In this document: positions 38,852 through 61,222 of the stretch, piece after piece | How positions within the stretch are numbered: the first letter of the stretch is position 1 | Layout: every line of letters starts with the position of its first letter | Assembly (NCBI GenBank): GCA_030159075.1 | Contig: BROG01000255.1 | Coordinates: forward strand, 722,501 to 786,500 | DNA length: 64,000 nucleotides | Source: Atrina japonica | Lineage: Eukaryota; Mollusca; Bivalvia; Pterioida; Pinnidae | Reading direction: 5' to 3' | Program-made: the position numbers and the translations under genes | The notes under the pieces: model-generated | The model's database searches: none | What the model was told of the DNA's origin: nothing | What the model saw: the letters and a program-made list of their open reading frames with translations, nothing else

Positions 38852-39787
38852 GATTCTTTCTTCTTATGCTTACTGGAAATATAAAGTTTACAAATCTAAT
38901 TTTAATTTGAATGACCATGAATAATGAAGCATGTTGGAGTACTATGTAGGCCTATGTCCTCACATAATGACCCTTTTTTCTGTCAATAGAGGGGGGTCCA
39001 GTAAAACATATAAACCTCTGGTCATACATCATAACTTAAGTTATACTCAGGTCTTAACATTTCCTTTATTGGCTATAACTCATCGACTCCTGACAACCAA
39101 TGGAATCTTCAGTTAATCAGTGATTCAGGCAAGTCCAAATGTGTCTCTAGGGATGAATGAGTTAAAATTTCTTAGATCTTAGATTCTTACGTATAAAAAA
39201 GAGAGAGATGAATGAAACACGTGCTTATTTTGTTCAAAAGGAATGTATAGTTGCAAACTTTTGATCAATGAACACGATAAGATGATATTTACACGTTCAA
39301 ACGTTGTAGCACTAGGCCTAATGACAGATTACGGTTAATCAGGTCAAAGTATCGTGCAGAGTCTAAACACCGAACCTAACAGAACCTAGCCGAAGCCAAA
39401 GTATCGTGCTTCTGGAAGGCTAACCGGTGATGTTCGTCCTCAAAAGTTTTGCCTAAAGAAGTAACTGTAAAGTATCCGTAGCTTCCAGTTACGATTGGAA
39501 TATTTAAAGTTGAACCCATAACTTACTTTCAGTAATGTAAACGGGACACTTTTGAGGGCGACCAAGATGACAATAACGCACTTATAGTAAAGCTTCCCAA
39601 ATTATTTAAATATTTCGGTAAAACTCATGTCACTTATGGGCGCAGACATCTTGACCTGAAATCGAGGCTGAACATTGGTTTCACTTTGTCGCGCGTCGAA
39701 CGTCAGTTACGTTTAAAAAGTAAACGTCAAACACGCGGAACGGCACGAGTTTCATTTTCTCAGAATACTTCAGAGTTGCAGAATTAC
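38852..39787. promoter_or_regulatory. Head-to-head intergenic region, candidate bidirectional promoter
   Basis: 936 bp between the start codons of the SLIMP-like gene (minus) and the RING-bromodomain gene (plus). No coding sequence. The 39620-39740 part is the least AT-rich and contains several CpG (GTCGCGCGTCGAACG) and an ATTGGT (inverted CCAAT box) at about 39673. No TATA box stands out. A dispersed repeat fragment lies at 39068-39168, on the SLIMP side. Confidence 0.5.
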
Positions 39788-39793
39788 ATGGAG
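39788..39793 (+). CDS. RING-bromodomain gene, proposed first coding exon
   Basis: ATG-GAG followed by GTTTGTG. It joins in phase 0 to Ala-Glu-Ile at 41817, giving a short N-terminus ahead of the RING, as in many TRIM proteins. The upstream part of the same frame (39686-39787) is open but has no ATG. Another non-coding or coding first exon cannot be excluded. Confidence 0.5.
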
Positions 39794-42700
39794 GTTTGTG
39801 TTTATGAATTTTCGGTTGCTCGTCAAATTTATGAAAACGCGAAAATCATTTTCAAAGACCACGTTGACATATAGGCTATCCCATGAATGATAAAAATCTA
39901 CAGCAAACTGCAATTTTGCAAGTTCACCGTCAGATTTATAAATATGAAAAGAATCACCCCTATAGACCTACTTGACTGTAATTTTGAAATGCAATATTTG
40001 CACTACTTGAACTTGATTTATATAACCAATGTCAATTCATTTAGATCTAATAATAGAAATCTATTTATTTGGTAAATTTTAGTGTGATGGGGTGAGTAAT
40101 GTTCATATTTCTTACTCATGTGAAGATCAGTCTTAAATTTCAGAAAAAGACATTTTGAATCATCGAAAATTGTTTGGAAATTTGTGGTGGAAAAAATTAA
40201 CATTTTTAAATTTGGTTTAAAAACAAAAAACTAGAAATCTTCAAAAGGACTTTTGTGTGTCCCAAGGATTTTGCAATTCTTTCAACATTTAATTGATATG
40301 ATTTTTTTTTTGCTTTTTGGGTATATTTGATGATTGCATGGATTAATTATATTATTCCCAAAGCGCAACCAATGCCCCGGGTTCGATCTTTTTATGAAAT
40401 CTTACAACCCGGATACAAGACAGTAAAAACCGAGGTCCCGTTCACAGTGTGTCTGCACGTTAAAGAACCCTCATGCTCAATAAAGCATAGGCTTTGAAGC
40501 CCTTTTGCAATTGAAAGATGATACTTTTAAACAACAATAAACAAACAAATATTATTCCCATGTGACAACATTATTACAAAATATTTACAAAAAATAAAAA
40601 ATAAAAAACAATTTCTTGCATTGCTCAGGAGCACACAGTGGTCCAATCAATGTTATAAAACTTTTTTTGTATACGTTAGTAAAACAAAAATGCATAGGTA
40701 TTTTAGCTGCAAGGTTTAATATTGTACGTTTTATCAGCTATATTTAAATGGTCACAGCTTGCACTCTGATATCAGGGGTCAGTAAATTTCACAAAGTTTT
40801 GGAACTAAAATGCACCTATAAATCCACATTTTAAATTTTGAGTGGACTTCAAAGTTTGCAAAGACTCTTGAATATGTACAATCCAATACTTTACAAAGAT
40901 AAAATAAAAAGAGAGATAAAAAACCCCCATTTTTTGCAAAATAGGGTGCCCATGGTATCCATGGGGGAAAAGGGGTCAAACCACTAAAATTTCATATTTG
41001 TATTAGGGCTATCATTGAAGAAATTCTATATCGATATATCAATAAGTAAAAAATATATAAATCTAATTTTACTTGCATAAATCCAGTGGTTACAGGTGTT
41101 GTATTGTGTATTTTATTATCTGAAGATTAAAAAAAATCATTGCAAGGAAAACATTGTTTATTTGAACAATTAGAACAAAATATAATATAGTACAACAACA
41201 TGAAGTAAAACAATTGGAAAATTTGGAAATTGTAAAAGAAAATACATCCTGTGAAATGCATTATGAAATGTATCGATTCTAAAAAAAATATGTATCGATT
41301 ATCATAATAAACAATTTGTATATCGATGCATCGATGTAGAATCTATCAGTGACAGCCCTAATTTATATATATGTACAGCATGTATTCTGTAGTGTTACAA
41401 AAAATATGGCATGAAGTAAAAAAAAATGTGCATGTCACAGCTCGGTGAACAAACAAGACATTTGAAAAAAGGTAGGGTCAGGGGGCAAGCAAAAATCAGT
41501 AGGACACCTTGTAAAATTCTCAGCCAATACCTCACTAGATTGGAAATTAAATACATGCATTCACTATTTTTACAATAAATAAAAAGAAAAAGAATCCACA
41601 TGACATTTAAATTCTTGAGGCTGGAAAACTTAAACGAAGTTGGCATGAAACAGATGAAATTACAATGACCACCAAGGTCTCAATTCCAGAGACTTACTTT
41701 TAAACTACATACATAGACATGACAGAAATTTTAGAATTCATGAATTTGTGAATTTAAAGGGCATTTTCCACAAATATATTTAAATATATTTTCCTGTTTT
41801 CTTTTTTATTTTTCAGGCAGAAATTTCAAGCAGAGCTTTGAAGTGCTCTAGCTGTTACAGGCCTTCCTTATTAATTGAAGGTGAAGGTCAAAACAGTATC
41901 AAGCTCGGATGTGGTCATTCCATGTGTTTTTCTGTAAGTTGCATGATGATATTCTGTGTGTGTGTGCAGTGGTCAGTTATATATATCAAGTGGAAGAATC
42001 TCTCTTTACTTTTGACTTCTGTCTTAAAGTACACGTGCGGTGACATCTCATTGGTCAGAGTCACTCGAATGGAAACATACAAAATGTACCGTATTTCAAA
42101 GATACTAATGTATTATGTAATGATATACAGTAAAATTTGCATTAATACCGGCTATTTCTGTATTACTATATAAGGAACACATGCCTATAAAAATCACTCA
42201 AACATATTAACCTCGAATTGCTAACATTTTTATAATGAATAAACCTCTTTATAAAGGCCACCTATCTATAACAACTACTTTTCCCTCGAGTGGCCTTTAT
42301 AGACAAGTTTGACTATATCATATGCATAACATCTCTAATTTAGTTCTTGGACTACATATATTGTGAAGATCTTGTAATATATATAATGTATACAGTGAAG
42401 CTTGTATATAAAGATCCTCTGACAGACACAACAGAAACAGGCTTTATAGTGAGGTGATCTTTATATAGAGGTTGATTTGTACACAAACAGTATTATTGGG
42501 GACAGCAAAAAACTTTTGACCAGGTGGTCTTTATACGCAGGTGGTCACTAAAGCAAGTTTTACTGTATGTCTTTGTGCGGAGTAAGCTTTAAGATTATCA
42601 TACAGTCATTAAAGAATCTTACCCTCGGATTGAGATTCCTTTGTCATACTCTCAAAGTAGGGGTAGACTCTTTTAGTCCTCTATATTGGTTTTTTTTTGT

Positions 42701-45700
42701 GTTTAATTATGAAAAATGATATTTATATTAAATTGGTAGATTTACAATGTAGTCCCAGGAACAGATCACCAGCCATCGGCAAGTAAACTGGCAAACTTCC
42801 CCACAAAAATCAGCTTAGGTTCCAGCGGGGCTCAAACCAGGACTGACTAAAAGTAAATGACTTCATGGTTTAAAGCGCGATGCTCGAACCACTCTGCCAT
42901 AGTTTTTATCTATGAAAAGACAGTGAAAACTTGGGGATAATATTTTATTTTCTTTTTACCTAGTTGATGGCAACTCTGTACAAAAGATACAGATGGTATT
43001 ACATCATATAGATTAGTTAATGTTCTTTTCAAGGATTCTCATGACAATGACATTGTCTTCAATACAAGAAGTCGTGAAGTAGTTCAGCATTTTATTTCCA
43101 GTGCTTACAGAGTCAGTGGTTGTCTTCCGGTTATAACGACAGTGAGAGCATTCGCTGCGTGACTTGTGCATTTACTACCTCTATTTCTGATGCACCAACT
43201 GGGACCAAGGTATGATATTTAGGATTATTCCAGTTTTTTTTTTTACCTTTTGATAACAGTGGCCTGAGCCTTTCCAACTGGGAACAAGAGTACCGCAAAC
43301 GGTACAAAGCATGCCCGCGATAAAAAGTGATGTACAGTTTATTTGTAGGAAGCAATTGACACTAAGCATGCACTTTTGGGGTGCGAAAGAGGAATACTGT
43401 TTACTTGGAAATTTTCGCTCTCGTTTAATTTTCACCTTTTTTGCCATTAGATTAGAGGGCGATTTTTAAATGAAAGCAAACAGTTAAATATTGTAGCACT
43501 GACATACATACCATCCATGAGACTATGGTGATTTAGGGCGAATTCAAGACAGGGTCAATATGTTTTCTGCTGTGAAAGGGCAAAAATAAGCAAGGGCGAA
43601 AATTTTAAGGTATACAGTATTAGTTGCGTTGAGATTAGTAACTGATTAGATGTTTATGTTTATTGTTGTTTAACGTCCCACTCAAGAATATTTCACTCAT
43701 ATGGAGACGTCACCAAATGCCGGTGAAGGGCTTCAAATTTTTGGCCTATGCTCAGCACTTACGGCCATTGAGCAGTGAGGGTTCTTTAACGTGCCGACAC
43801 CTACTGTGACACGGGACCTCCAGTTTTTACTGTCTCTTCCGAAAGACAGGAAACCAACCTGCCGCCGGCGGGACTCGAACTCACAACCTCACGATCCAGA
43901 GTCAAGCGCGCTACCGACTGAGCCAGGTAACTGATTATAACACTGTATAATATACAGGTATAAGAGTATACAATGAGATGTATTATGAAATGTGCCTGCA
44001 TTCGAAAACCTATACACAGCACATAAAGTTATGTATGATTTTTAAAAATAGTAATGTTGCCCTACATTCATAAACAGTGACATTGAAATGTTGATTGTCT
44101 CGAGAATATGTTGCAAGGAACAGTTGTATAAATTTCATCAAAATTCATTCAGTTACTCAGAAACCGTCGACACGCAAAGTTACATATTATTTCTGAAAAT
44201 AGTAATGGTGACCTACATTCACAAACCACAACCTTGAAGTTTGACTCGTCTCAAGAACTAGTTAAAGGAACAACTATATAAAGTTTCAATAAAATCTGTT
44301 TGCTGGAAAAGCTCCAGACAAGCTAAATGTTGACATTAAGCTATATAAGATTTCTAAAAATAGTAATTGAAATTCAACTGGTCTCGAGAACTTGTTGCAA
44401 GGAAGAACTGTATAAAGTTTCAATAAAATTTGTTCAGTACTGTCTTTGCTTAAAAAGCTCCGGACAAGCTAAATTTCTAAAAATAGTAATGGTGAACTAC
44501 ATTTGCATATGACGACCTTGAAATTTGACTCATCCAGAGATCTGTTGCAAGGAACAACTGTATAAAGTTTCAATAAAATCTGTTTAGTACTTTGCTTAAA
44601 AAGCTCTGGACAAATGGATGAACGAACGTACACACAGACAGGGTGGGTGTATAAATATTATCGACAATTGGACAGAATTGGGAAATTTTACACTGCTCAG
44701 CCATGACAGTATTTTCTCCTTCAGTAGACTAGTTTAATTCTGATTCTTGTCTTTAAAGTATGAGATTGAGAAGATTTATTTACTTTGTTGTATAATTTAT
44801 TTTTTTGTAGAATTTTGATTTATGCAACATAACCATGTGTACATTCATTTGGAATCGGAACTCATACACTTACTTTGAATACTGATCACAAATGAATAAA
44901 ATTATGTTAAAAAGAGCCCAGAGAGTTACGAGAGAAAAAACACTCACTAGAAACACATTTACTTTTCAATTGAATTACTGCCTGTCCTTTGGGAAGTTTT
45001 ATCATAATTTGGGGATAAACATTACATTTTGTACAGGTAAATTTTTTCAACGGCTAAAAGGCTGCTTCCCCTAAATAATTTTCCCCAAATTGAAGTCAAT
45101 TTTGTAAGTTTTGTAGAAAAAGTGCCCGGTATTTGTCTTCACTTATTCAGGGGTGAGGTAATCCTGTACCTGACTTGCTCATCTTGTTATGTTTGCTTCC
45201 TGGGCAAGTACTTTTTAGCAGTGTGATTACCTTTGGACAGTGAACTGTAGCAGAAATTGCGATTAAAATATAAATAAAAAATTATTAGAAAAGTCAATGC
45301 TGTATTAAGACTGATAATTGGATTTGATGTTAACTTGAAATTGTCACTAGCTTTTTATTGATATTGATAATTACATGTGATATCATAAGAAAAGCATGTT
45401 AAAATGTATTAACATTTGCCTCTATGGAATAGTGCACAAGGAATGTTTAGTTTCAAGGAATCAGATTTTTATAACTCATGTCCAAGGACAGGTACAAAAG
45501 CTTTTATTTTCCCACCCCTGGTTTTGTGGCACTTCTAAAGGTGGGAATGAAAAATCACCGATTTCATTTGTAGCCAAAATTTGTGGTCCACTTTTTCAAA
45601 ACATAACACCTCAGAAAGTTTAGACCCCCCAAACCCACCTACCCCACCAGATTTCCTTTGTTAAAGTGATATTTCAACAACACATATTTCTGTTTTTAAG

Positions 45701-48700
45701 TATCAGATTTTCATGACATCATTTGTGACTTAATTCATCAACCCCTGTGGGCACATTTAGACTCTTTCAGGTCAATAAATAGAATGGTCTACTGTCCTTT
45801 TTCAGGAGTGAGCAGGTTAAAATTACACCTAAAATAATTGTGTTATGAGGTCAGAATTACCTTAAAATATGGCAGCAAAAATCAAGAACACAGTAAAGTA
45901 AATTTATAAATTTTATTAACAATAACAAAAATAAAAACTTAATGTAAATGACAGTTTACAGTAATTAAAATCACAACTCACAGTTCAATTCCAGTTCAGA
46001 GATCCACACGAATACACAATAAATATTAAAAGGATCCACTTGAATACACAATGAAGTCCAATTTGTATGTAATATTGATGTGCCCTATTCTCACATAAAT
46101 CCCAATATAAAAAATATGGTCTGCTCTCCTATAACTTGGTCTCAAAAATAGTCTCAGCTGTTCTAAACTTGTTCTAAACTTGTTCTTCACTTGTTATATC
46201 CCAAAGACCTGACCATCTCTGTATCTATACTCTAAAACAGTTCTAGAAATCACTAGATAGGAACAATCAAGAAAATGGTCTTTCTACAAGATTCAGGAAA
46301 GTCCCTATGGCTAAATATAGTAACATGATGACAGAGTTAGAATGTCCTTGAACAAACACACAAATAACTGATCTTCCAGAAAGGTCCAGATGCACTAAGT
46401 TCAACAAGTACAAATAATTGTAAACAAGCACCCATTAACCCTCATAACAATTGTGAAATTTTGATTTCAAATCGTACACTCCTAAATTATGACAGTGGAC
46501 TTTACTTGAAATGGTGGAGACCAAATGAGGCTTTAGCAGTCCATGAGTTAAACATATAACTACTGATTGATTTCATCTTTCTTCTAGGGCTCATTTGACA
46601 GCGCCATCAACCTCTCATCAGACACAATTCTAGACAGGAATTCAAATGTCGTGAAGTGGGACAGACCAAGTATTGCTGATCTGCAGACTCGATATGTCAC
46701 AGAGCTATCTTCAACGGAAGCAAAAGAGCGGGATATCATTGGTGTGTCATCCTCTGTTTTCAGAACAATACCAACAAATCGACAGAGATGCGTAGAGGAG
46801 TCTGGTGTAGTCAAGTGCAAAGAAGAAAATAACAATGTACATTTTGATGTGGAATCTTTCGAAAAATGTGAAGGACTAGGATTCAAAGACAGTAAAGATT
46901 GTCAACAGTCTCTGAAAGGAGGGGGCATTGGAGTTGATGTAAATTACAAAGACAATGAAACAGAAAAGGACAGCTTAGTTACAGTTGGTTTTAATGGTAT
47001 TGCTAATGGATCGAGAGTGTTAAAACTTCCACTACAGTACGGACCAAAAGAACCCAGAATGCAAACAAGTTACTCAAATACTCGTAAGTCTTGGGAAGAC
47101 CTGACGGTCACACAAATCTCGCAGGGGAATACTTATGAGAGACCCTGTACACAAAGACTTTCAGAACCTGGAAATGATGCTGACTTTAAAGAAGTCAAGT
47201 TTTCAGACTGTTTCAATGAATCGAGGAATTATGGTAGACTTGAAAATATTCCAGAATCACGGTCAGATGAGGTTCTTGATCTTTCACTAAGTAAAAACCA
47301 TTCATTTCTGCATAGTACAATGATAGAGGACAAGACACTATTAGAAAATGCACATGCTCTAGCAGAGGCTGGCAATATAGGTGGTGACAAAAGAAGCTCT
47401 TTTGCTTTCGAAACTAGACAGCACTCTGGCATAACTAACACAGATGTCAATCAAAGTAAAGTCCAATTTTCTCCAGTAGCTGTTGATTTTGATGGAAACA
47501 GAACAAGACTCGCAGGAACACAACACCTACAGCTGTCGTCTGTGACTTCCCCGTATTTGAGTGTTTCAGGTGAAATAAATGATTCCCTGTATCAGACTTG
47601 CTTAGAGCCATGTGAAGGGGATGGCATTATGGGTAATGATAATCCTTTGTCTGTGTTAGATTTTTCTTGTGGCAACTCGAAGACTTCTCAGCAGGATAGA
47701 TTACAGAATTCAACTCCATATCTTCCTGACTCCCACATTTCTGCTCAAAATGACACATGGGTAAATCCTAACAGTACCAGCACCCTCTCTTGTAGATGCC
47801 AGTATGGAAATCATGTTTGTAATGAACGAAATACTCTCATTGAGCTGCAAAGCTGTCCCGTGGAGGGCTCGGTCAAAGAAAAGTCTCTGTATAATTTGCC
47901 GACTACATCTGACAAAGCTCTGCATCCCGAGGATACAGAGAGTATCCACCTTTTGTGTGCGGAGTCCTTAAATAGATTCAAATTACATCTGGATCAGATA
48001 AAATCCACCGACAGGAAAACGTGGCATGAAAGCCACAACATATACTTCCAAGAAAGCATAACTAACATAGAGAGATTGGTCGTAAGAGTGGCACTTCTTA
48101 ACGATAAGTACAAACAAAGTGTTAGTCAGGACGACAAACTCGGAAGCGACATGATGGAAGTCTTGTATTTGTGTTTATCTAATTTGATCTTTGCACACTT
48201 GACCTTTAAAAGAGTATGCTCACTGTCTCACACGGCATTGAATGAGCAGTTGACCTTTTATCCGGACGTCCTCGTAAATGCCGTACAGAATCTGATGCAA
48301 CAGTCAATATTGGCTACATCACTGGTGTGCAACGTCAGTGACGACATAGCACAGCAGTACCAAATAAAACACGAGAAAAGTATGGAAGCTTTGCAGAGAC
48401 AAAACCATGAGGAATCTCAGGAAAGGCAGGATACTGGAGTAAAAACATTCCTTGAACATACAGGAAATAAAGAGAGTCATGAAGATAGATCTGAGGCAAT
48501 GTCAGAAGATACCGTGGCTGATATAGCCAAAATTGTTTCCTCAAAAACTTTCCAGCAGTCTGGAAAAAATGAAAAAGATTCTTTTGAGGATGACTGTCCA
48601 TTATTTGATATTGCTATCAGTAATTATTTGCAAAAACTTGAGAGAAAAAAATCCTTAGGAAACAATGATCAAATGGCAACAGGGGAAAACGGCCAGCTGG

Positions 48701-51700
48701 TATCTTGCAAAAGAGATGGAGAAAATCTCCTTCAGCCATCTAAACTGCATGTTCTATGTAACAAGAAGTTGCAAAAGATTCATGGCGCTGCCGAGATACG
48801 TAGCAAGCAGCAGAAGGAAAAGATTTTATCTTCTTTACCAGACAAGACAGCGATTGATATAGACAAAACAGGATTAAGATGTAGAGTTGTCTGTTCACGA
48901 GTTGATGATTTCATTGATGGCATTGATAAAGGGAGCTCTGTAAATCTGAGTGCAGATTATTCTAAACAAATCACCGAGACTGATAAACGGAGTAGAGGAA
49001 CATCGCCATTTGTCTTTGAATCTGTCTCGAAACAATCGGGCTTTGGGTCTTGCACAGACTTGTTGAATGAATGTAGAACAGGAGCAAAGAGACACGGTCC
49101 AATGGAATCTCAGTCAACTGAAAACTGCTCGCCAGCAAAGAGGAAGTTGGTTTATCAAAAGGATCAGAAAGCTTGCCATAGCAAAGCAGGTGAAGATGGT
49201 GCTGGAATGTCATCTAAAGCACAGCCGAAAAGCAAAAAGGAACTGTTTTCCGAGCAGTTGCATAAAGATATAACAGAAAGAGGAAATGACAATATCCACT
49301 GTAAATCTATAAATAGCACACACAATAATGAAACATCATTTGACGCATTCAAAAGCAATTTAAGCATACCAGACCAAACAGTATCAACAACGAAAAATGT
49401 GTCATTAATTGACTCTGACCAAGCAGATGTCTCCGCTAGAAGACATTCGGCATCAAAGAAGTTGAACGTGGATAAGACTTCTTGTGTACGTAAGTGTGTA
49501 TCGTCTTGTGCAGCACCAAATCAAGATCACAGAAAGACAATGGTACAACCCATCTCCCAAAAACATGAATATTCACAAAGAAAAGGTTCGGCCAAAAGCC
49601 ATCGTGAACCATTGCACAGCAGTGCTTCAAAAGTACAGTGCTTGAAAAAAGGAGAAAGAGTACTGGGGAAATGTACAACTCGTGAAGATGATGACCCAGA
49701 TAAAGTTCAAAGTTTACAAAAATCTAAAATTTCTCATGCCTGTTCAGAACATTGCAGATCTTCAGATATCTCTTTGTCTGACAGACATGTATCTGAGCAA
49801 GAGAGAAAAATATTTGGGCTACCTTTAACAAAGGTCAAACAAACCTGCCCTGATAAAGGAGAAATACAAAACCAAGGCAAAACATTTGTAATAGAAAATC
49901 ATACTTCTCTGCTTCCATCAACAAAATTAAAGGAAGTTAAAAAGAATGGTCAGAACCTGACAAAAATGTCTGCCAGCAAAAGCAGGTATCACTGTCAGTG
50001 TATCCAAACTCATTTAGAGTCAAATCTGGAAAGATCTGGAAGTCGAACTCCTGATACAAGGAGTGGTCAGAGTGTGACTAGAATTGTAACACATAAATCA
50101 CAAGACAGTTTGCCTACTGGCAAGAAAGGAATGACTGATAAAGTCACTGTGGTACAAAATCATGAACACATTCGACGGTCAATGTCAGTTGAAGGTCATT
50201 CAAATAAAATGAAAAGGTCAAAGGTTATCGTAAACACTCCTGATTCCAGTCAGGTCAAGGCAAAGGACAGTGTAGACAACAGTGGGAAAGCATTATCTAA
50301 ATCAGAGCCCTCAGGGAGTGAACAAAAAAAAAATAGAGAAGGACATATAAAGCAATTGTCATATTTATCAGATTCAAGAAAGAGAAAAGAAAGGGAACAC
50401 GGAATGGAAAAATCTGACAGAAACTGTGGGAAAGTTGAGGAAAAAAGCGTTGGGAAAAGTAGCGATGTTAGAAACAAAGATGGCAAGTTCGTGCATAGAG
50501 AAAAAGATAAAAATCATGTTTCAGTGAAAGGATCAACTAAAACTAAATCTGAGAAAAACGGATCAGAGTCAAAAACCAGAGACCTTGAAATTGACAAAAA
50601 GTCCACTAAAAGCAGGACAGACTCTTCCGGCCATGACTTTAAAGATGATATGATAGCACACAAATCAAGTGACTCTGGCAAAGGGTCAAATCAAAACGTA
50701 CCAAGAACGAAGACAAGTAATTCTTGTAAAAATAAAAAGATCAAAGAGAAGACAGAGGATACAAATGTTTCCATGGCAGCTGTGTATGATTTCGTGGATG
50801 ACAATGTTGTGATAAGAAATAAATTGATTTCACTTAACAGGAAAGAATTAGGAGAGAGGTATAACCCAGTCACAGATAAAAGTAAGGACAGACAACAACC
50901 CCATCCATCAGCCGGGAAGACTGTCAAGAAGACGAGGAATCATCCTAAAGATGGAAAATACAAGAGCATTTTGTCCGACTCTAGTAGTACGGAGTCTGGA
51001 CATGAAGATGTAGACGGTATGTATCAAAATATGTCCTGCTGTTGTATTGTGAATAAAACTTGATGTTCAGATGTTTGGGAAGGAATAGTAAGTGAGCAAA
51101 TCTTCAAATAAAATTTCACCATTCAAATTTTCAGTCACCAGTATATTACCCTGTGTAGCATCATTCGGTCACATGTCTGATACCAGTGTATTACCAAGGG
51201 TAGCATCATTCGGTCACATGTCTGATAGCAGTGTATTACCCAGTGGTGCATCATTCGGTCACATTTCTGGTACCTGAGTGTGTTACCCAGTGTAGCATCA
51301 TTTGGTCACATGTCTAGTACCAGTATATTTCACAGTGTAGCATCATTTTGTCACATGTCTGGTACCAGGATATTACACAGTGTAGCATCATTTGGTCACA
51401 TGTCATGTACCAGGATATTACACAGTGTAGCATCATTCAGTCACATGTCAGGTACCAGGATATTACACAGTGTAGCATCATTTTGTCACATGTCTGGTAC
51501 CAGGATATTACACAGTGTAGCATCATTTGGTCACATGTCATGTACCAGGATATTACACAGTGTAGCATCATTCAGTCACATGTCAGGTACCAGGATATTA
51601 CACACTGTAGCATCATTCAGTCACATGTCAGGTACCAGTATATTACACAGTGTAGCATTATTTTGTCACATGTCTGTTACCAGTGTATTACCCAGTGTGG

Positions 51701-54700
51701 CATCATTCCGTCACATGTCTGGTACTGATGTATTACGCAGTGTGGCATTATTTTGTCACATGTCTGGTACCAGTATATTACACAGTGTAGCATCATTTTG
51801 TCACATGTCTGTTACCTGAGTGTATTGCCCAGTGTAGCATCATTCGTTCACATGTCTAGTACCAGTATATTACACAGTGTACCATTATTTCGTCACATGT
51901 CTGGTACCAATGTATTTCACAGTGTAGCATTATTTTGTCACATGTCTAGTACTGGTGTATTACGCAGTGTAGCATCATTCGGTCACATGTCTGGTACCCA
52001 GATATTACACAGTGTAGCATCATTCTGTCACATGTCTGGTACCAATGTATTACACAGTGTAGCATCATTCTGTCACATGTCTGATACCAGTGTATTACCA
52101 AGTGGTGCATCATTCGGTCACATGTCTGGTACCTGAGTGTATTGCCCAGTGTAGCATCATTCGGTCACATGTCTAGTACTAGTATATTACACAGTGTACC
52201 GTTATTTCGTCACATGTCTGGTACCAGTGTATTTCACAGTGTAGCATTATTTTGTCACATGTCTAGTACTGGTGTATTACGCAGTGTAGCATCATTCGGT
52301 CACATGTCTAGTACTGGTGTATTACGCAGTGTAGCATCATTCGGTAACATGTCTAGTGCTGGTGTATTACGCAGTGTAGCATCATTCGGTCACATGTCTA
52401 GTACTGGTGTATTACGCAGTGTAGCATCATTCGGTCACATGTCTAGTACTGGTGTATTACGCAGTGTAGCATCATTCGGTCACATGTCTAGTACTGGTGT
52501 ATTACACAGTGTAGCATCATTCGGTCACACGTCTAGTACTGGTGTATTACGCAGTGTAGCATTATTCGGTCACATGTCTGGTACCCAGATATTACACATT
52601 GTAGCATCATTCTGTCACATGTCTGGTACCAATGTATTACCAAGTGGTGCATCATTTGGTCACATGTCTAGTACCAGTATATTACACAGTGTACCGTTAT
52701 TTCGTCACATGTCTGGTACCTGAGTGTATTACCCAGTGTAGCAACATTTGGTCACATGTCTAGTACCAGTATATTTCACAGTGTAGCATCATTCGGTCAC
52801 ATGTCTGGTACCTGAGTGTATTACCCAGTGTAGCAACATTTGGTCACATGTCTAGTACCAGTATATTTAACAGTGTAGCATCATTTGGTCACATGTCTGG
52901 TACCTGAGTGTATTACCCAGTGTAGCAACATTTGGTCACATGTCTAGTACCAGTATATTTCACAGTGTAGCATCATTCGGTCACATGTCTGGTACCAGGA
53001 TATTACAGTGTAGCATTATTTTCCATCACTAATTCACATGGGTTAGATAATCTCTTTATGGGGGAAATTCTCCTTAAATGCTTCAGGTATTAAGGGCAAA
53101 TATTATTTTTTATAAACTTGTGTTTTTTTAAAATACTCACTCATTAAATTTCCAATGTTCAAATATTTACATACTCACCTGAGAACTCTAAGGTAATTCA
53201 AAAAATGGAAGAACAAATATGCATGTAGAAAAAGTACCAAACAGTAGTTACAAATAGGCCTACACAATGTATTTGAACATAGTTTTTTGGTGTTAGTGTC
53301 ACCTCCATTTTGTATAAAAAACACTTTTTCATAGAACTTTTTCACCCCCTTCGGGGTTGCTGAATTCAAAACAATCCAGTGATGGATATTTTTTTCACTG
53401 GAAAGAAAGATTTGATTATTATAAAAGTTATAAATATGATTTTATGAATTTTTGTGAAATATATCCTTTAACATGTTTAAGTCTTAGGTTGGTTAAAACT
53501 CTGCGGGATCAGGATTTTGACTTTCATATGTCGGCAAGCATGACCTTCATTCTTTGAAATTTATCAAACAGTGAGTTTTGATATTTTGTTAGTAAAACAT
53601 TAAGACATTATATATGTTTAAAAATCTAAAGTTAACATGTATCTTTTGTTGGGAATGAAAATGGTGATCTATTTTTAGATGATGGGCATTTCCCCCCAAG
53701 ATTTACATCAATCACAGAGCTTGACCTTCCATCCCTCAGCCATTCAGGAAGATTGTCATCAGAAATGGGAGATGGAAAGAAAAAGAGATGTCGTCGTCTG
53801 GACCCAGACACATTGCTTCAGATACGACATATTTTTGGAGGTAAAAAAGCAAACAATTTTTGGGGTTCTGAAACCAAGGGAAATAACTTGTGTCACTTGG
53901 TGTAGTACATCTTCAGGGATTAATACCATCAACAATGCAGGTCCTGTAAAAGGCCCCATTCCCAATGCAAAATCTGCTATTTTTTCCCACTTCAAAGTCT
54001 TCAGATGAAAGCCATGTTTTCAGTTAAAGAGAAGTTAAATGAATCACAATTTTGTGTCTTTACTCTTATGAATTAAATGACCATAGTTATTTTTTCCCAA
54101 TTTGACCCATTGACTTGTAATATTCCCAGTTGGAAGGGTACAGAACCCTGTCCCAAAAAGGGTCTCTAAACCCCTGATCTTAGAACATGATTCAGTGAGC
54201 TTCAGTTTGAGATACCCAGTAGTCATACCACAATGATTACCAGACTGATTACATTTTAGGTCATATGCAGAATTGAATCATGCATTAATTTTCAACATTT
54301 TAAACTTGTCAATTCTCTTCTTCCCAGGGGCTAGGGTTATGTAGGTTCAGCTGACAAATAATGCCCTTTTTCGGCCCCTTGGCCTCTTATGTGTATATGA
54401 GGCTAATGTGTTCAAGCATGTATCATTTAACAACTGTTGTCCAGTTCATAAAAATTGATTATGGTAATTGAACATGTTGAAGTAGATCTACCCCTGCTTT
54501 GTTTTGTTTTTTTTTTCTCTTCAGCACACAGACCTTATTTGCTTTTCCCCATTATTCACAGAGCTAACCCTCTTTTGATGGGGACATTTTCCTGTCAAAC
54601 CCTTTACACACTATAAAGGAAGTACAAACAGTGTCGTTATGCCACCAGGCTCAGTGGAACTGGCTTCAGATTTTTAACTTCATGTCTTTATTTACAAAAT

Positions 54701-57700
54701 GTTCAAGTAGAATTAAGTTGATGAGATAAAAATAGTCAATCCCTTCATAGGGGTTTGATGATAGAATCTCAATCCTCAGGGAATCAAATCTTGAATATGC
54801 AAGCCTCAGATCAGTCAAATTTCTTTTTCATACCTTCCAAGGTAAGGTGTTTCTTTAATTCATCCATTATTAATCTGTTATAAACAACATTTGCAAACTT
54901 TTAATTTTGTCTTTAATTTCAGTGGACTTTGATTTACACAAGTATGGCAATCTGAATTCAAGCGTAACAAAGCCGCCTGTCCATAAAGTGGAACCATTTA
55001 AACAGAAAGAGGAAGTAGATTGCAAGTCGGAGGGGTCCATTGACTTCAAGGGACACTCTGAAAACAACAAAACTTTTATCTGTGGGGAAAGTACAGGAAT
55101 AACAGATAATAATCGCGATCAGAATAACAATGATACAAGCATTAGACATGTAGATGAGAATGGCACCAGGAAAAAGGCTCAGGAAAGCGATTCTTTCATC
55201 AGTCACATCGACTCAGAATATGACATTAGCAGTGACAGAAGCTCCTGTTTACAGTCCAGCAGAACTGATTCTTTCATCACGGACAGCAGTCAGAACATTT
55301 CCGGACAAAGTGATTCATTTGTCAGTGACACAAGCCTCAGCCTCTCAAGTCAAGAATCAGGTAATCATTGGTTGAAAGTGATCTGGAATTCCTCTATTTG
55401 GGTCATTGAGGTGACATTGTGATTGGTTGGCCCTTGTAATCATGTGGATGTACAGTATGCAAAATTTTTATACTTTATAAACTTTCTTTGGAGGGTGGGG
55501 GGCACACAGCAGACAGTGTCAGACATTATCCAATGACAATGAATTCGAAGAGATTCTTATATTCTCACATAGTTTTGTGTATTTCTAGATTTCCCAGTTT
55601 CAATAAACTTTGCTAAAATTCCCAATTCAAAAGGCCCAGGACCCATTCTCAGAAAAGTCTGGAAAATCCAGATCAAAGGGCATACTGTTTTTGGTCTCTC
55701 TGTCTGTCCGTCTGCAACATTTGAGTGTCTGTCAATTTACGTAAGTTTATCTCCTCAAATTTTAACGAAATTTGGCAAACAGTAGAAACTGTCTTGAGAG
55801 ACCACTCTTATTTCAATCCACCTGTCTTTATCCTTCAAATAAAACCTCTTTTAAGAGACCACATTACAGCGGCAGATGGGGTGGTCTCTTAAGACGGGTT
55901 CCACTGTATTTACGTCAGTGAGAGATCACTGCCCATTTTATCAAGAGGTTGTAAGTCCAAAGTCATAAGTCTTAAGTCATTTGATCTAATGTCAATTTTT
56001 GCATACTTTCAAATAAGATCTTGAAAGTTTATGAATAGTTTTACCTGCTACATTTAGAATGATAAATAATAACACATACAGAAATAAGTTAGGTCTGTGC
56101 ACAATCTCTGGGTAGTCATAACGACCTGACCTGATTTGGTCGTAAGTCACTGGTCCTACTTCTTTGTAAAATGGTCGCAGGTCATAAGCGTGGTCCTAAG
56201 ACCAAATCTAAGACTTAAGACCTTTCCATTCATAAAATGGGCCCCTGGCTTAGGACACGTCAGAAGAAGAATTTGTTAACAAGGAACATTATACAACATA
56301 GAAAAAAATGGAGTGAGAGTCAACCCACAGAATTTTGTACTACATCAATCATGTTAATAGCATTTGCGTTTCTTTTGATATTTATTACTGAAAGGTTGTG
56401 AAAGGAAAAGGAGAAAAACACGGGGAAAAGTGACTTGTTCATCTTCGGATGAAATTATTCCTGCCAGAAAAGAGCGAGGATTTCAACATGTGGATGTAAG
56501 TTCTTCATTCCAGATCATCCCCGGAAAATGGGGTCCATTATAGATCACAGTTCTCTTTATTCATCTTTAAAATGTCTTATAACTTGAGAAGAATCTAAAC
56601 GAAACAGGTTGCATTAAACACTGTGTTTTTTTTACTACCATTAAAATTATATATAGTCATTGCTTGTCTAGGTTTTAGTTCAGAGATGACATTTACACTT
56701 TTATAGTATTGGCTGTGATTATCATTTCAGAAGTGTTTCTCTATCCTAAACCGACTGTACAATAATGTGCATGGTGAACCATTCTGTCATGAAGTGAAAT
56801 CAAGAGATGTAAGTAATTCAACACATATTTTATATACATATTTTGTGTATGTATATATTTATATATATATTTAGGATCTGTCACCAGTTTCATTTCACAT
56901 TACATGTATCACATTTATGATACGAGTTTTGAATTTTCCATCTGGAGAGCAAAAAGGGAAAATTAATAAGGAGTTGCATAAACGTGATATGAATGGAAAT
57001 TTGAAATAGATTCTTTTTATCACATGATCTAACATATATGCAATAGAACTTCGATAAGTCGAATTTCAAGGGAACACCTAGAAAAGTTCAGGACTACGAC
57101 TCATGGATGGTAACCAGGAATCATATTTTTAGTATCATAGTTTCTATAAGGTGAATATATGAAACCATTAGACGTACATGTACGGTCATTATAATTAATA
57201 ATTAGTGCTAAATTTGATTTAATTTTCGTGAAATTAAAACATTGAGTGTCTATGAGAAGGAGAAGAATTATCATGGGGTGATTTCCTACACATTTAAAAT
57301 TTGACTTTGAATTATATGTCTTTGGTTATAACTGTTACAACTTTACCACCATGCTTTATTCAAAAGTGTCCAACTCTTTTCCCCATTTTTTTTTAGCACC
57401 CTGGGTGTAAATCGTTTTTTGGTCGTATGTTATCAGAACATGATTTCAAATCAACAATTCTATTTGTTCTACAAACTTTCAGTGAAGAGTTTTTAAATAT
57501 GTATGACTGAGTTGACCGAGGGTCACATGTAGATTTGATTTTTGGCCGGATTGCAAAGCAGGTCAGGTCTATAGATTGACAATGTCCGTCTGTCCGTCAA
57601 CATTTTGGTTTAAATTTTGGTTTAAGCAAATTCTCAGCAATTGATAGAGGTGCAGATTTCATACTTGGCCTGTAGGTTACCTGTGGCAAATGCATTTGAA

Positions 57701-60170
57701 ATATGTGGGTTCCTGTGGCAAATGCAATTAAATTATGTGGGTTTGAATTTTTGGGGGTGGATCAACATTTTGGTTAAAGTTTCAGGTTCAAGCAAGTTCT
57801 GGGTAATGGATAGAGGTACAGACTTCAAACTTGGCCTGTGGGTTACCTGTGGTAAGTGCAATTGAATTATGTGAGGGTTAAATTTTTTTGGGGGGTGGAT
57901 CAAAGTAGCAATTGGGGTGGGGATCAACATTTTGGTTAAAGTTTCGGGTTCAAGCAAGTCCTGGGTAATTGATAGAGGTACAGACTTCCAACTTGGCCTG
58001 TAGGTTACCTATGGCAAGTACAAATTAATTATGTGGGTTTGAATTTTTGGAGGCAGAACAAAGTAGTAATTGGGGTCGGCAATAGATAGAGGTACAAACT
58101 TCATTCTTGGCTTTAAGGTTGCCTGTGACATGTGCAATTGAATTATACGGACTTGAATTTGTGTGTGTGTGGGGGGGGGGGCACAGTAGTAATGGGGATG
58201 GGGATCAATATTTTGGTTAAAGATTTGGTTGAAGCAAATTCTCAGCAATGAATAAAGGTACAGACTCCATACTTGGCCTGTAGATTACCTGTGACAAGTG
58301 CAATTAAGTTATATGGGTTTGACTATTGGGGTGGATCAAAGTAGTAATGGGGTGGGAATCAACATTTTGGTGAACGTTTTAGGTTGAAGTAAATTCTTGG
58401 CAATTGAAAGATGTACAGACTTCATAATTTTATAATTATAAACAAAAGTCTTGGGTGAATAGTGACTGAACATTTTGACATTTGATTTCAGGTTATTAAA
58501 ATGAACCTAATAAGAAATAGTTCCAAACACATGGGCATTATACTTGTGTCTAATTTACTGATTAGATTTTACTTTGCAATCTGGACATTCTGTCTTTAGC
58601 AGTTTCTTTTTAAAAATGTAGAAAACATTCTATAATACCTGTTTTATTATGTTGCAGGTACCAGACTACTACAAGGTCATCAAGAGAGGGATGTGTTTTG
58701 ATATGATAGCCTACAAGTTGAGAAATAACATATACCAGGAAATTAACGAGTTTGTGTCGGACATGCGACTTATTTTTCACAACTGTCGTCTCTATCATCA
58801 GGTATTGGGTTTATCAATGTCAATTATTGTATTGGTTTTCATATGTAAACATTGAAACAAACGTATCAGCTCTGACATGTAAACTTTGTAGTGTAACGTG
58901 CACTGGGGGTCACCCAACCAAATGCTGACCTTGCTCACTGTTCACAGTCCAGCCACAAATGGTAGCTGTTGGACTAGACAGTTAAACTGCCTATATCCAT
59001 GCCTGTTACACCACACCATCCACCAACAAACTCTGTCCCAAAGCTTCAGAGTTCAACCTGAAATCCACAGCTTACACTATGCCCTTCAGCTCAGCGGCTG
59101 TACATCCAGGATTTCAAGCTTTTCCGTTGCCACCAAGTGTAACATGTACTGGCAGTTCTCCAAGCCCTTCACATCAAACCCATCCAGATGCTTTCTGCAC
59201 TCCCTGTTGCTTAACTTTTGTACATGAATATTAACACCAACTGTAAAAAAGCTAGCTATTGTACTTGAGAGTTAAACTGCATATATCCATGACTGTTACA
59301 GTAGTAATTTGGACTGCCTCTGACAAAAGACTTCATACCATAACTTTTGACTCATTGATATATATATGATGTCATAAGACTTCACTTGTGAATTACTGTA
59401 AGATAGACTTATGGGATTGTGATCTTTAACTTGACTTCTGACCATTCCTCTCATAATAAAGAAGACGATTTTGGAGTCGTCTCTTCCCTTCAGTTTTGTC
59501 AGAACAGTTTTTCCTTGGATCATGTGACTTAAACTGAAAGTCGGGCAAGGTCCATTCTGGTCATGTAATATTCACATTGATGACATTCAGCTATGTCTTA
59601 AGTTTAGATAAATTTTCTATCTCGTAAATGTAGGAAGTGTCATCACTTTCCTGAAGGTTGTTTTTCCGGCAGCTTTTACTTCATGATATTCATATTCCAG
59701 GTCATATATATATATATATATACAAAAATCTGCTTAACTGGAAATAATGATGCCCCACCATTCTCTTTGAAACTGCACACAATTCGAAAATTGACCTTCC
59801 CATTCTTAAAGCTGATGACATCACAATACTCGACACTTCGGTCATGCCTCGGACAAACGTTTAAATGCATTGTGATGTCAAGAGATTTGACTAACTTTCG
59901 CGAAAATTTGATGTGTCAATGTCTGTTCAAAGTGTGGTAAAAACTCTTTGTTTGGGTACAACACCAAATTTTTGTCATCATTGTTTCGCTCCAGATGACC
60001 GTTTTATTTAGACATATTTCTTTGAATATTTGCCTTGTTTACTCAGCTTTTCGTGCAAAATGTTTAAATTTACATTTCAGTCAGACACCCATATTTACAG
60101 ATGCGGAGAAAAGATGGAGAAATGTTTTGTCTACTTGTTCAAAAAGACATTTCCGGAGAGTTTGTTGTAA
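39788..60170 (+). CDS. RING finger-bromodomain protein, ten exons
   Basis: Exons: 39788-39793, 41817-41933, 43102-43209, 46588-51016, 53679-53840, 54923-55360, 56395-56495, 56731-56808, 58658-58801, 60081-60170. All borders are GT-AG and phases agree, giving 5673 nt and 1890 residues. Residues 12-63 hold all eight ligands of a C3HC4 RING, as in TRIM-type E3 ligases. Residues 78-1554 are mostly low-complexity, rich in Ser, Lys, Asp and Gln, with one helix-rich segment at about 529-680. Residues 1788-1887 form a bromodomain resembling those of TRIM24/33/66 and SP140. No B-box or PHD finger is visible, so this is not a standard TIF1 protein. Likely a nuclear chromatin-linked ubiquitin ligase (inference). 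Exon 1, only ATG-GAG before GTTTGT, is the least certain part. Confidence 0.85.
40405..40550 (+). mobile_element. Degraded V-SINE/RUDI-type fragment
   Basis: Keeps ACCGAGGTCCCG, CACGTTAAAGAACCCTCA and the AACAATAAACAAACAA tail with internal deletions. It lies in intron 1 of the RING-bromodomain gene. Confidence 0.75.
41817..43209 (+). CDS. RING finger exons 2 and 3
   Basis: Exon 41817-41933 follows TTTTTCAG and ends at GTAAGT. Exon 43102-43209 follows TTATTTCCAG and ends at GTATGA. Together they give Cys12-x2-Cys15, Cys34-Gly-His36-x2-Cys39, Cys42, and Cys60-x2-Cys63, a full C3HC4 RING. The intron splits the domain directly before Cys42. Confidence 0.88.
42392..42564. mobile_element. MITE family C copy
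   Basis: CAGTGAAGCTTGTATATAAA to AAGCAAGTTTTACTG, 173 bp, TA on each side. The same length and layout as the inner element at 22.6 kb. A more diverged copy spans about 42126-42317. In intron 2 of the RING-bromodomain gene. Confidence 0.85.
42748..42905 (-). mobile_element. Second SINE family copy, reversed
   Basis: CAAGTAAACTGGCAAACTTC, AAAATCAGCTTAGGTTCCAG, GGGGCTCAAACCAGGACTG and a head with TGCTCGAACCACTCTGCC. Confidence 0.75.
43655..43927 (-). mobile_element. V-SINE/RUDI-type SINE copy, well preserved
   Basis: Reverse-oriented full copy from the TGTTTATTGTTGTTTAACG tail to the head GGACTCGAACTCACAACCTC ... GCGCTACCGACTGAGCCAGG. Very close to the 10.4-kb copy. It is located in intron 3 of the RING-bromodomain gene. 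Confidence 0.88.
44040..44640. repeat. About 120-bp tandem repeat in the RING-gene intron 3
   Basis: Around four to five diverged units with AAATAGTAATGGTGA, CTTGAA(G/A)TTTGACTC, GGAACAACTGTATAAAGTTT and CAATAAAATCTGTTT. Ends with a short ACGTACACACAGACAGGGTGGG tract. Confidence 0.75.
45000..46587. other. Rest of intron 3 of the RING-bromodomain gene
   Basis: No exon seen. Holds one dispersed unit at 45728-45832 and AT-rich unique-looking DNA. Confidence 0.55.
46588..51016 (+). CDS. Giant exon 4: disordered linker of the RING-bromodomain protein
   Basis: 4429-nt exon, open throughout, from CTTCTAG (phase 0) to GTATGT (phase 1), encoding residues 78-1554. The composition is Ser, Lys, Asp, Glu, Gln and His rich with many basic clusters toward the end, which suggests intrinsic disorder and nuclear location. 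Residues 306-310 read Val-Leu-Asp-Leu-Ser, close to the CtBP-binding Pro-x-Asp-Leu-Ser consensus. Residues 529-680 have regularly spaced hydrophobics and look like a folded helical domain. Cys and His are scattered but form no B-box or PHD spacing. Reading past the donor stops after 15 more codons at 51061. Confidence 0.9.
51110..53020. repeat. 45-bp satellite in the intron after the giant exon
   Basis: About 42 units of 45 bp, each with GTAGCATCATT, GGTCACATGTCT and GTACCAG(T/G)ATATTAC. It begins about 95 bp after the exon 4 donor. Because 45 is a multiple of three, long frames stay open (up to 193 codons), but these are repeat translations, not genes. Confidence 0.95.
53679..53840 (+). CDS. 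RING-bromodomain gene exon 5
   Basis: 162 nt between TATTTTTAG and GTAAAA, phase 1 on both sides, so it could be skipped without shifting the frame. It encodes Asp-Asp-Gly-His, a Ser/Leu-rich part, then a basic cluster Lys-Lys-Lys-Arg-Cys-Arg-Arg and Gln-Ile-Arg-His-Ile-Phe-Gly. The basic cluster could be a nuclear localisation signal. Confidence 0.75.
54923..55360 (+). CDS. RING-bromodomain gene exon 6, Ser/Asp repeats
   Basis: 438 nt from TTTAATTTCAG to GTAATC, phase 1 on both sides. It encodes an acidic, Ser/Asn-rich segment. Three copies of Asp-Ser-Phe-(Ile/Val)-(Ser/Thr) lie within the last 60 residues, in a setting typical of acidophilic kinase sites. Confidence 0.85.
55780..55905. mobile_element. 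MITE family H copy
   Basis: CAGTAGAAACTGTCTTGAGA ... GTCTCTTAAGACGGGTTCCA with ACTG end. Inside intron 6 of the RING-bromodomain gene. Confidence 0.78.
55940..56247. mobile_element. Family D repeat, uninterrupted copy
   Basis: Matches both halves of the 7.9-8.66 kb element, including TTTTACCTGCTACATTTAGA at the site where MITE A sits in the other copy. Ends ATAAAATGGGCCCC. In intron 6 of the RING-bromodomain gene. Confidence 0.8.
56395..56808 (+). CDS. RING-bromodomain gene exons 7 and 8
   Basis: Exon 56395-56495 (GAAAG to GTAAGT) encodes a Lys/Arg cluster, Glu-Arg-Lys-Arg-Arg-Lys-Thr-Arg, then a short acidic linker. Exon 56731-56808 (TTTCAG to GTAAGT) starts the bromodomain: Cys-Phe-Ser-Ile-Leu-Asn-Arg-Leu-Tyr, matching the first helix Cys-x-x-Leu-Leu-x-x-Leu-Tyr of TIF1/SP140 bromodomains. 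Both are too short to stand out as open frames and are recognised by phase and homology. Confidence 0.82.
57560..58440. repeat. About 160-bp tandem repeat in the bromodomain intron
   Basis: Five to six diverged units marked by AACATTTTGGTTAAAGTTT, then a phrase with GATAGAGGTACAGACTTC and TTGGCCTGTAGGTTACCTGTG, then a G-rich stretch. Starts are near 57599, 57762, 57928, 58207 and 58360; one unit is partly deleted. It lies between exons 8 and 9. Confidence 0.8.
58658..58801 (+). CDS. Bromodomain core, exon 9
   Basis: Phase 0 on both sides (TTGCAG to GTATTG). Starts Val-Pro-Asp-Tyr-Tyr-Lys-Val-Ile-Lys, the hallmark ZA-loop motif, and ends with Glu-Phe-Val-Ser-Asp-Met-Arg-Leu-Ile-Phe-His-Asn-Cys-Arg-Leu-Tyr-His. 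The usual Asn-Pro-Met-Asp after the Lys is Arg-Gly-Met-Cys. The acetyl-lysine-anchoring Asn, six residues into Asn-Cys-x-x-(Phe/Tyr)-Asn, is His1860 (58796-58798). Confidence 0.92.
60081..60170 (+). CDS. Bromodomain C-terminal helix and stop, exon 10
   Basis: Follows TTACATTTCAG in phase 0. Ser-Asp-Thr-His-Ile-Tyr ... Lys-Met-Glu-Lys-Cys-Phe ... Phe-Pro-Glu matches the BC loop and last helix of TRIM24-type bromodomains (Asp-Ser-Glu-Val ... Leu-Glu-x-x-Phe ... Tyr-Pro-Glu). TAA is at 60168-60170. The last 25 bp form the first unit of the tandem array that follows. Confidence 0.85.
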   Translation, partial: SDTHIYRCGEKMEKCFVYLFKKTFPESLL

Positions 60171-60435
60171 ATGGTTCATAAAAACATTTCTGGAGAGTTT
60201 GATGTAGGTTGGTCATAAAGACATTTCCAGAGAGTTTGTTGTAGGTTTGTCATAAAGACATTTCTGGAGAGTTTGTTGTAGGTTGGTCATAAAGACATTT
60301 CCGGAGAGTTTGTTGTAGGTTTGTCATAAAGACATTTCCAGAGAGTTTGTTGTAGGTTTGTCATAAAGACATTTCTGGAGAGTTTGTTGTAGGTTGGTCA
60401 TAAAGACATTTCCGGAGAGTTTGTTGTAGATTGCG
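60143..60435 (+). repeat. 37-bp minisatellite over the stop codon and 3' UTR
   Basis: About eight units of a 37-bp sequence containing AAGACATTTCC(G/A)GAGAGTTTG. The first unit is the end of the bromodomain coding sequence with its TAA; later units have TAG or equivalent at the same place. Confidence 0.9.
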
Positions 60436-60742
60436 TGTGTGGTTTGATAGTGTTTTAAAGCGTCACTGTATTCATTATGACAGTGTTCTTGTTTTTATGC
60501 CACTGATATCGGCAGAGAGTGAGGACATATTGTTGTTGGTTCATCTGTTCATGCTTTTGTCCCTCTATGTGTTTACAACATATTGGTTTCTATGAATTTG
60601 AACCAAATACGTTATGTATGGTAGCTTTGCATCAGTAACAAGTAAGAGGACTCTGATTATGACCAAAATTCTGCAATATTTACCAGAATGATGGGACTTT
60701 AAGGTATCCATTGTATAAGTGAGTGCAAGTATGTTAAATTTC

Positions 60743-60748
60743 AATAAA
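60743..60748 (+). terminator. Candidate poly(A) signal after the RING-bromodomain gene
   Basis: AATAAA, 573 bp downstream of the stop, beyond the 37-bp array. It sits in a phrase (TTTCAATAAAATC) that also occurs in dispersed repeats near 44 kb, so it may be repeat-borne. Confidence 0.35.
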
Positions 60749-60999
60749 ATCCAGAAAAAAGGAAATTTCATCAAAATATCTTAAAAATGAAGTTTCCTCA
60801 AAAAAAAAAATTTATATTTGATATAGATGAAATATTTGTTAATGAATAAGATTTTATTAGGCTTTATGTAAATAAGATTATCTGGTGGTCTGGATGATGC
60901 AGTTGCACAACAGGTTGTTAATTTTAACATGAAGTTAAGCAATGGTAAGCCAATGGGCTAACTGTAGGTCAAATTTAACAATGTGTTGTGCAACTGGGT

Positions 61000-61222
61000 C
61001 CTGGTAGTTAGAGCATCACCCCTTTAACCATGAAGTCTCTCACTTCCAGCCCTGCTGGAACCTAAGCTGATTTTTGTGAGAAAGTTCGCCAGTTTATTTG
61101 TGGAAGGCTGGTGGTCTCTTCCTGGGTACATTGTAACCGGGTTCTCTCCTCCACCAAAAAAAAAATGTCAATATATAATTGAAAAAGTGTTGAGTGTGGC
61201 GTAAAATACTATTCAAATCAAG
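61000..61222 (+). mobile_element. Second SINE family copy
   Basis: TAGTTAGAGCATCACCCC, CCTAAGCTGATTTTTGTGAG, CTGGGTACATTGTAACCGGG and GTGTTGAGTGTGGCGTAAAA. The box B region is partly deleted. 3' fragments of the same family are at 26790-26890 and 27668-27760. Confidence 0.8.

Follow-up and report, generated by a model that had tools for sequence, protein, structure and literature searches.

Does the locus described here encode one protein with a RING at one end and a bromodomain at the other and neither B-box nor PHD finger between them, and if so, is that protein a form of TIF1? The gene predicted in the window (the whole 64,000-nucleotide stretch of DNA that was analysed) has 10 exons which splice in frame into a 1,890-residue product (Table 1), reproducing the model of the first-pass annotation; all nine introns are bounded by GT..AG and their phases are consistent throughout. 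The reading that we favour, with a probability of about 0.5, is that of one nuclear gene whose product would carry an N-terminal RING, some 1,700 residues lacking any known domain but including a predicted helical bundle, and an atypical C-terminal bromodomain, and would act as a RING scaffold tethered by that bromodomain.

Table 1. Features of the predicted RING-bromodomain gene, with positions in the window
Feature	Position	Strand	Content
Putative exon 1	39788..39793	+	Met-Glu only (6 bases); ATGGAG/GTTTGT at the donor; uncertain, a guess
Exon 2	41817..41933	+	RING part 1 (CSSC..CGHSMC)
Exon 3	43102..43209	+	RING part 2 (C..CVTC)
Exon 4	46588..51016	+	1,476 codons plus 1 base; without any Pfam family
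Predicted helical bundle	47914..48426	+	Residues 520-690, inside exon 4; AlphaFold2 single-sequence model
Exon 5	53679..53840	+	Basic KKKRCRR, NLS-like
Exon 6	54923..55360	+	Ser/Asp-rich
Exon 7	56395..56495	+	Basic CERKRRKTR, NLS-like
Exon 8	56731..56808	+	First helix and ZA loop of bromodomain
Exon 9	58658..58801	+	Bromodomain core; LYHQ (His for docking Asn); GMC for PMD
Exon 10	60081..60170	+	Last bromodomain helix and stop

Both terminal domains claimed earlier were recovered. The RING ligand pattern C-x2-C..C-x-H-x2-C-x2-C..C-x2-C, with all eight ligands, lies at residues 12-63 across the junction of exons 2 and 3. In Pfam it reached 20.4 bits at best (E 5.7e-4), under the curated cut-off of 30. 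A search for RINGs split between exons gave a single match, on the + strand; the - strand and 58 control segments yielded nothing. RINGs normally have Ile or Val at a position where this one has Ser, and a residue other than Ala after the last Cys, where this one has Ala, and E3 activity of the predicted RING is therefore doubtful. The C-terminal domain has the fold and core motif of a bromodomain and scored 69.8 bits with Pfam (E 2e-19, cut-off 21.7). The acetyl-lysine-docking Asn, located by alignment to that of BRD4 and kept in 23 of the 28 bromodomain rows compared, is replaced by His, and GMC stands where 22 of the 28 carry PMD. Because the docking Asn is absent, acetyl-lysine binding by the predicted bromodomain is doubtful.

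A counterpart of exon 9 was found in a metagenome (P0001; 75% identical, 36 of 48 residues kept), with Tyr at the docking position and the same GMC; the match spans exon 9 only and covers none of the remaining layout, and judged by its sequence P0001 shows a second carrier of this type of bromodomain exon. It was the one match among 2 candidates when a 136-residue bromodomain piece was searched against the protein database, while nothing matched residues 1740-1890 (54 candidates) and nothing matched the exon-4 bundle region (1,888 candidates, E up to 10). That database is seemingly poor in animal proteins, and such negatives carry little weight for other animals. Apart from this metagenome exon, no animal relative came from the collections searched.

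Each search bore out the absence of a visible B-box or PHD, as first annotated, and the predicted layout, with RING at one end, bromodomain at the other and neither of those modules detected, is upheld. Pfam found no B-box, PHD or SAND on pieces together covering the whole protein, nor when 38000-46587 and 52900-62400 were translated in the three + frames, each stop being written as X; the frame-wise search also missed the split RING, showing that it misses split domains. Motif searches for the three domains gave nothing on both strands of 38001-64000, and motifs split by one intron revealed no PHD or B-box on the + strand of 38001-46587 and 51000-60300. This last search does detect the PHD of the animal's own TIF1, which is itself split; for a split B-box it had no such control. 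By Pfam, motif and split-motif searches alike, no PHD was found directly before the bromodomain. In the genome, none of the 149 B-box matches (150 of 561 candidates scored) and none of the 77 PHD matches (150 of 273 candidates scored) lay on contig C255.

Since this model is a prediction from sequence alone, it might fuse at least two neighbouring genes, with exons 1-3 forming a small RING gene and exon 4, the bromodomain or both belonging elsewhere. Reading past the exon-3 donor meets a stop after one codon, which makes a 78-residue RING protein conceivable, and introns 3 and 4 are long (3.4 and 2.7 kb). We nevertheless consider such a junction unlikely. Exon 4, annotated as a single exon of great length, is indeed open for 1,491 codons, whereas the longest open run in 60 simulated sequences of 64 kb was 197, and its first Met comes only at codon 158; since 157 Met-free yet open codons would be improbable (P 3.7e-5), coding should extend upstream, which calls for a phase-0 coding exon, and this is the phase at the end of exon 3. 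Codon usage is shared between exon 4 and exons 5-7, the score of exon 6 being reached by 0 of 1000 null segments and those of exons 5 and 7 by fractions of 0.012 (n = 1000) and 0.010, and the agreement of intron phases throughout also argues against separate genes. The codon usage of exons 2 and 3 is not clearly apart from that of introns (0.11 and 0.117, or 0.575 and 0.67 with another training set). Exon 1 as originally called fared poorly, its donor scoring only 0.26 bits (threshold 0.25), at the bottom of 6 candidate phase-0 start exons.

The region between the two domains had been described as mostly disordered. On crude scales this applies to its second half, where 29 of 53 windows beyond residue 700 are disordered, but not to the whole, for which the 84 windows divide into 33 disordered, 31 mixed and 20 folded. 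The bundle was modelled as six helices (mean pLDDT 70.3, pTM 0.62, a middling confidence for a single-sequence model), and the model matched only common helical bundles. It lies at residues 520-690 and not directly after the RING; in TIF1 proteins a coiled coil follows the B-boxes.

Compared with the TIF1 or class VI TRIM proteins (TRIM24, TRIM28, TRIM33 and Drosophila Bonus), the predicted protein has the same N-terminal RING, C-terminal bromodomain and, presumably, nuclear site, but differs in that no B-box or PHD was found and in the length separating its ends. Contig C560 carries a separate gene of the TIF1 type in which RING, B-boxes, PHD and bromodomain are all present, so that the window gene is not the canonical TIF1. 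The gene could instead be a diverged TIF1 duplicate whose B-boxes, coiled coil and PHD were lost and which acquired the long exon, a reading that we regard as rather unlikely. Uniting its bromodomain with those of TIF1 and SP proteins costs no likelihood relative to the free tree (lnL 0.27 higher, p-AU 0.526), the KC..IL..LY pattern of human TIF1 recurs in the first helix of the bromodomain, and the borders of exon 9 are both borders of the core bromodomain exon in the animal's own TIF1 and in a third gene, L009 (3 of 22 rows, compared by eye). SP100 and SP140 bromodomains likewise lack the docking Asn (having Tyr, as P0001 does) and the Asp of PMD. However, the RING is unlike TIF1 RINGs by score (8.1 bits against the animal's own and 2.5 bits against the human), with no TIF1 RING matching it among 25 PDB sequences at E up to 10, and the top pairwise bromodomain scores were with yeast GCN5 (70 bits) and BPTF (65), ahead of BAZ2B (56), TRIM24 (54) and SP140 (26), so the "SP140-like" label first given to the domain is weak by score. 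In the tree the domain sits on its own long branch; union with TIF1 alone lowered lnL by 6.65 (p-AU 0.207) and union with BAZ2 by 1.56 (p 0.307), and none of the 7 unions tried was rejected at 0.05. By sequence the bromodomain may thus be kin to TIF1/SP, with TIF1 itself not singled out. The window protein also differs from SP100/SP140 in having a RING and in lacking PHD and, in Pfam scans covering the whole protein, SAND and HSR.

A tentative extension of the single-gene reading is that RING and atypical bromodomain were joined independently of TIF1 around a new bundle, in animals that keep TIF1, giving a convergent family of chromatin proteins absent from the literature searched. In that literature, which leaves out most subscription papers, no RING-bromodomain layout of this type was found among the matches listed, judged by title and start of abstract; the one paper matching phrases for a RING-bromodomain protein seems to be on p300, and none joined bromodomain, RING finger, TIF1 and mollusc. 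BRCA1, which has an N-terminal RING, one giant exon and C-terminal BRCT repeats where the window protein has a bromodomain, offers an analogy only, and homology is not claimed.

Under the single-gene reading, basic stretches (8 NLS-like motifs in the predicted protein) would carry the product into the nucleus, where the bromodomain, with His or Tyr for the docking Asn, might anchor it on acetylated chromatin or on a partner protein. The bundle may self-associate or bind partners in place of the TRIM coiled coil, and the RING would recruit to that place either a ubiquitin-conjugating enzyme or another RING as partner, a working mode somewhat like that of TIF1 in a protein other than the animal's canonical TIF1. 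If confirmed, this would be a new domain layout among proteins carrying RING plus bromodomain, and a natural test of their coupling without PHD, B-box or coiled coil; the swap of the docking Asn for His in one source and Tyr in the other invites the question which ligands bromodomains without this Asn bind.

That the locus is decaying or a pseudogene appears very improbable. The weak exon 1, the lost docking Asn and the presence of tandem repeats both within intron 4 and across the stop codon would suit decay, but the 1,476 codons of exon 4 are intact and exon 9 is kept in another source. Nor was an intact sister copy found as a source of decay: in the genome search 9 of the 10 exons matched the window locus, the four other matches were bromodomains alone, and no second copy of the gene, or of exon 4, was found. 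The array over the stop codon has a 37-base unit, and the final 36 bases of exon 10 lie within unit 1.

The first-pass annotation was right in its central observation, a RING joined to a bromodomain without B-box or PHD, and this layout withstood the sequence-based tests. Pfam, motif and split-motif searches found neither missing domain. Pfam on the three + strand frames, with stops as X, gave the bromodomain exon as the sole clear match and no PHD or B-box, but this frame-wise scan also missed the window's own split RING, showing that split domains escape it. A motif search on both strands detected no PHD or B-box, nor did a split-motif search of 38001-46587 and 51000-60300, which recovered the PHD of the animal's own TIF1 as a positive control; its B-box part had no split positive control and a three-exon zinc finger could escape it. 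Two defining TIF1 features were not found in the gene, which, judging from its RING joined to a bromodomain, may be at most TIF1-like in action.

Splicing of ten exons (+ strand, 39788-60170; GT..AG borders, agreeing phases) reproduced the product length previously proposed, 1,890 residues. Exon 4 is 4,429 bases long, and the longest stop-free run of the window is 1,491 codons, compared to at most 197 in any of 60 first-order Markov simulations, each 64 kb long. The first Met of exon 4 is at codon 158; given the local frequency of stops, a chance stop-free stretch of 157 codons has P 3.7e-5, and it is therefore very likely that an upstream phase-0 exon would feed coding sequence into exon 4. 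Exon 3 has an available phase-0 donor. The proposed exon 1 is weak, being the lowest-scoring of six candidate phase-0 start exons from the 13 donors scoring at least 0.25 in 37000-41700. Codon usage was scored as the fraction of 1000 stop-free intron segments (each up to 240 bases) reaching the exon's score; trained on exon 4, this was 0/1000 for exon 6, 0.012 for exon 5, 0.010 for exon 7, 0.11 and 0.117 for exons 2 and 3, and 0.133, 0.547 and 0.261 for exons 8, 9 and 10. Training on homologous exons from the same genome, largely bromodomain exons, gave 0.008 for exon 9, 0.07 for exon 8, 0.124 for exon 10, about 0.05 for exons 5-7, and 0.575 and 0.67 for exons 2 and 3. An eight-copy 37-base tandem array lies at 60135-60433, its first unit including the last 36 coding bases of exon 10, stop codon among them, and the rest lying downstream.

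The RING ligands (residues 12-63; C-x2-C..C-x-H-x2-C-x2-C..C-x2-C) are divided between exons 2 and 3. When scored splice sites across 38001-46587 were joined donor to acceptor, this was the only RING obtained from the + strand; the - strand gave none, nor did any of 58 equal-length control segments (29 sequences, two strands). The control is imperfect, as the own TIF1 RING inside one segment went unrecovered; under looser join rules that RING was completed by 31 different joins. No Pfam RING score reached its cut-off (the highest was 20.4 bits, E 5.7e-4, where 30 bits are required), and PDB matches were weak, led by TRIM32 (E 0.021), with no TIF1 RING among the 25 matches at E up to 10. The window RING scored 8.1 bits against the own TIF1 RING and 2.5 bits against the human one. 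Its second Cys is preceded by Ser and its last Cys is followed by Ala, both unusual in active RINGs, and, by our own reading, the residue after the second Cys, which we take to be the E2-binding hydrophobic site, is Tyr. PMC6487577 reports a hydrophobic residue (L17 of TRIM25, M24 of TRIM32) as important in E2 binding, describes the TRIM24, TRIM28 and TRIM33 RINGs as inactive in isolation and mentions a TRIM28 RING structure.

Class VI TRIMs (TIF1) are listed for bilaterians in PMC3503706, and the same animal's genome (832 Mb, including the window) holds a TIF1-type gene on another contig, C560. The final exon of that gene's bromodomain was looked for without success, so the gene may be incomplete.

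Parts of the TIF1-type gene of the same animal, in order
Feature	Location	Strand	Content or support
TIF1-type gene, whole	C560:213500-243200	-	RING, B-boxes/coiled coil, PHD, bromodomain
RING, first part	C560	-	38 bits; first in order
B-boxes and coiled coil	C560	-	147 bits, 43% to TRIM24; B-box also in genome B-box search
PHD	C560	-	71 bits, 57%; also by split-PHD search
TRIM33-like bromodomain, two exons	C560	-	last in order

Exon 4 DNA matched only itself in the genome, and the whole protein matched nine exons at the window locus and, elsewhere, four bromodomains alone (best 34.5 bits, 39%), so that these searches found no second copy; with the C560 gene, this indicates that the window gene is distinct from the animal's canonical TIF1. 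One of the genome's 32 bromodomain matches is the window gene. Scoring of 150 among 561 B-box candidates across the genome gave at least 149 matches; many of them lie in long open frames, and the TRIM-like repertoire may therefore be expanded.

The C-terminal bromodomain is clear (Pfam E 2e-19). Among the best 60 of 415 PDB matches, the top one-bromodomain chains were GCN5 (yeast; 70.9 bits), BPTF (65), BAZ2B (56) and TRIM24 (53.5); multi-bromodomain chains (PBRM1, BRD4) were higher in sum, with single domains at 41 bits or less. The docking Asn column of the BRD4 alignment is His in the window; in 28 reference bromodomain rows this position is Asn in 23, Tyr in three (SP100, SP110, SP140) and Thr in two (TRIM28, PHIP). 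PMD occurs in 22 of these rows, the three SP rows carry MW in place of MD, and the same site is GMC both in the window and in P0001, a 118-residue prediction from a metagenome contig of 1,472 bases, whose docking residue is Tyr. PMC3326523 states that the conserved Asn anchors acetyl-lysine and that Thr or Tyr can replace it, with Asp in MLL. Exon 9 is identical to P0001 at 36 of 48 residues, and the match, confined to exon 9, fits the same exon borders in P0001 as judged from the protein alone. The window and P0001 paired at 100/100, on a branch of length 1.23, in a 35-bromodomain tree built from the reference rows, exons of the animal's own genome and P0001. The p-AU for uniting the pair with other groups was 0.526 for TIF1+SP, 0.307 for BAZ2, 0.249 for SP, 0.247 for GCN5/BPTF/CECR2, 0.207 for TIF1, 0.175 for BET and 0.077 for BPTF; none of these seven placements was rejected at 0.05. 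As judged by eye, both exon 9 borders recur in the own TIF1 core exon and in the PHD-bearing gene L009, giving 3 of 22 rows.

Pfam gave no noteworthy family for exon 4 or for exons 5-6. On crude scales, the 84 windows between RING and bromodomain were 33 disordered, 31 mixed and 20 folded; as disordered windows were 3/30 up to about residue 700 and 29/53 beyond (one crossing the divide), the description of this middle as mostly disordered is valid for its second half only. For residues 520-690, single-sequence AlphaFold2 modelling predicts six helices (mean pLDDT 70.3, pTM 0.62), and the model's structural matches are common helical bundles. The protein carries eight basic NLS-like motifs. In intron 4, a 45-base minisatellite is repeated about 42 times (51137-53020); conceptual translation gives 15-residue repeats, with as many as 212 codons free of stops.

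Elsewhere in the window, an Rfam tRNA match at 10435-10507 (30.9 bits, cut-off 29) was not confirmed as a tRNA by ARAGORN and is perhaps a tRNA-derived repeat. A short ORF at 7063-7449 has Gly-Ala repeats (AGAGAGAG..) and looks silk- or shell-matrix-like by eye, and a 47-base tandem repeat occupies 29163-31005 in about 40 copies with 95% matches.
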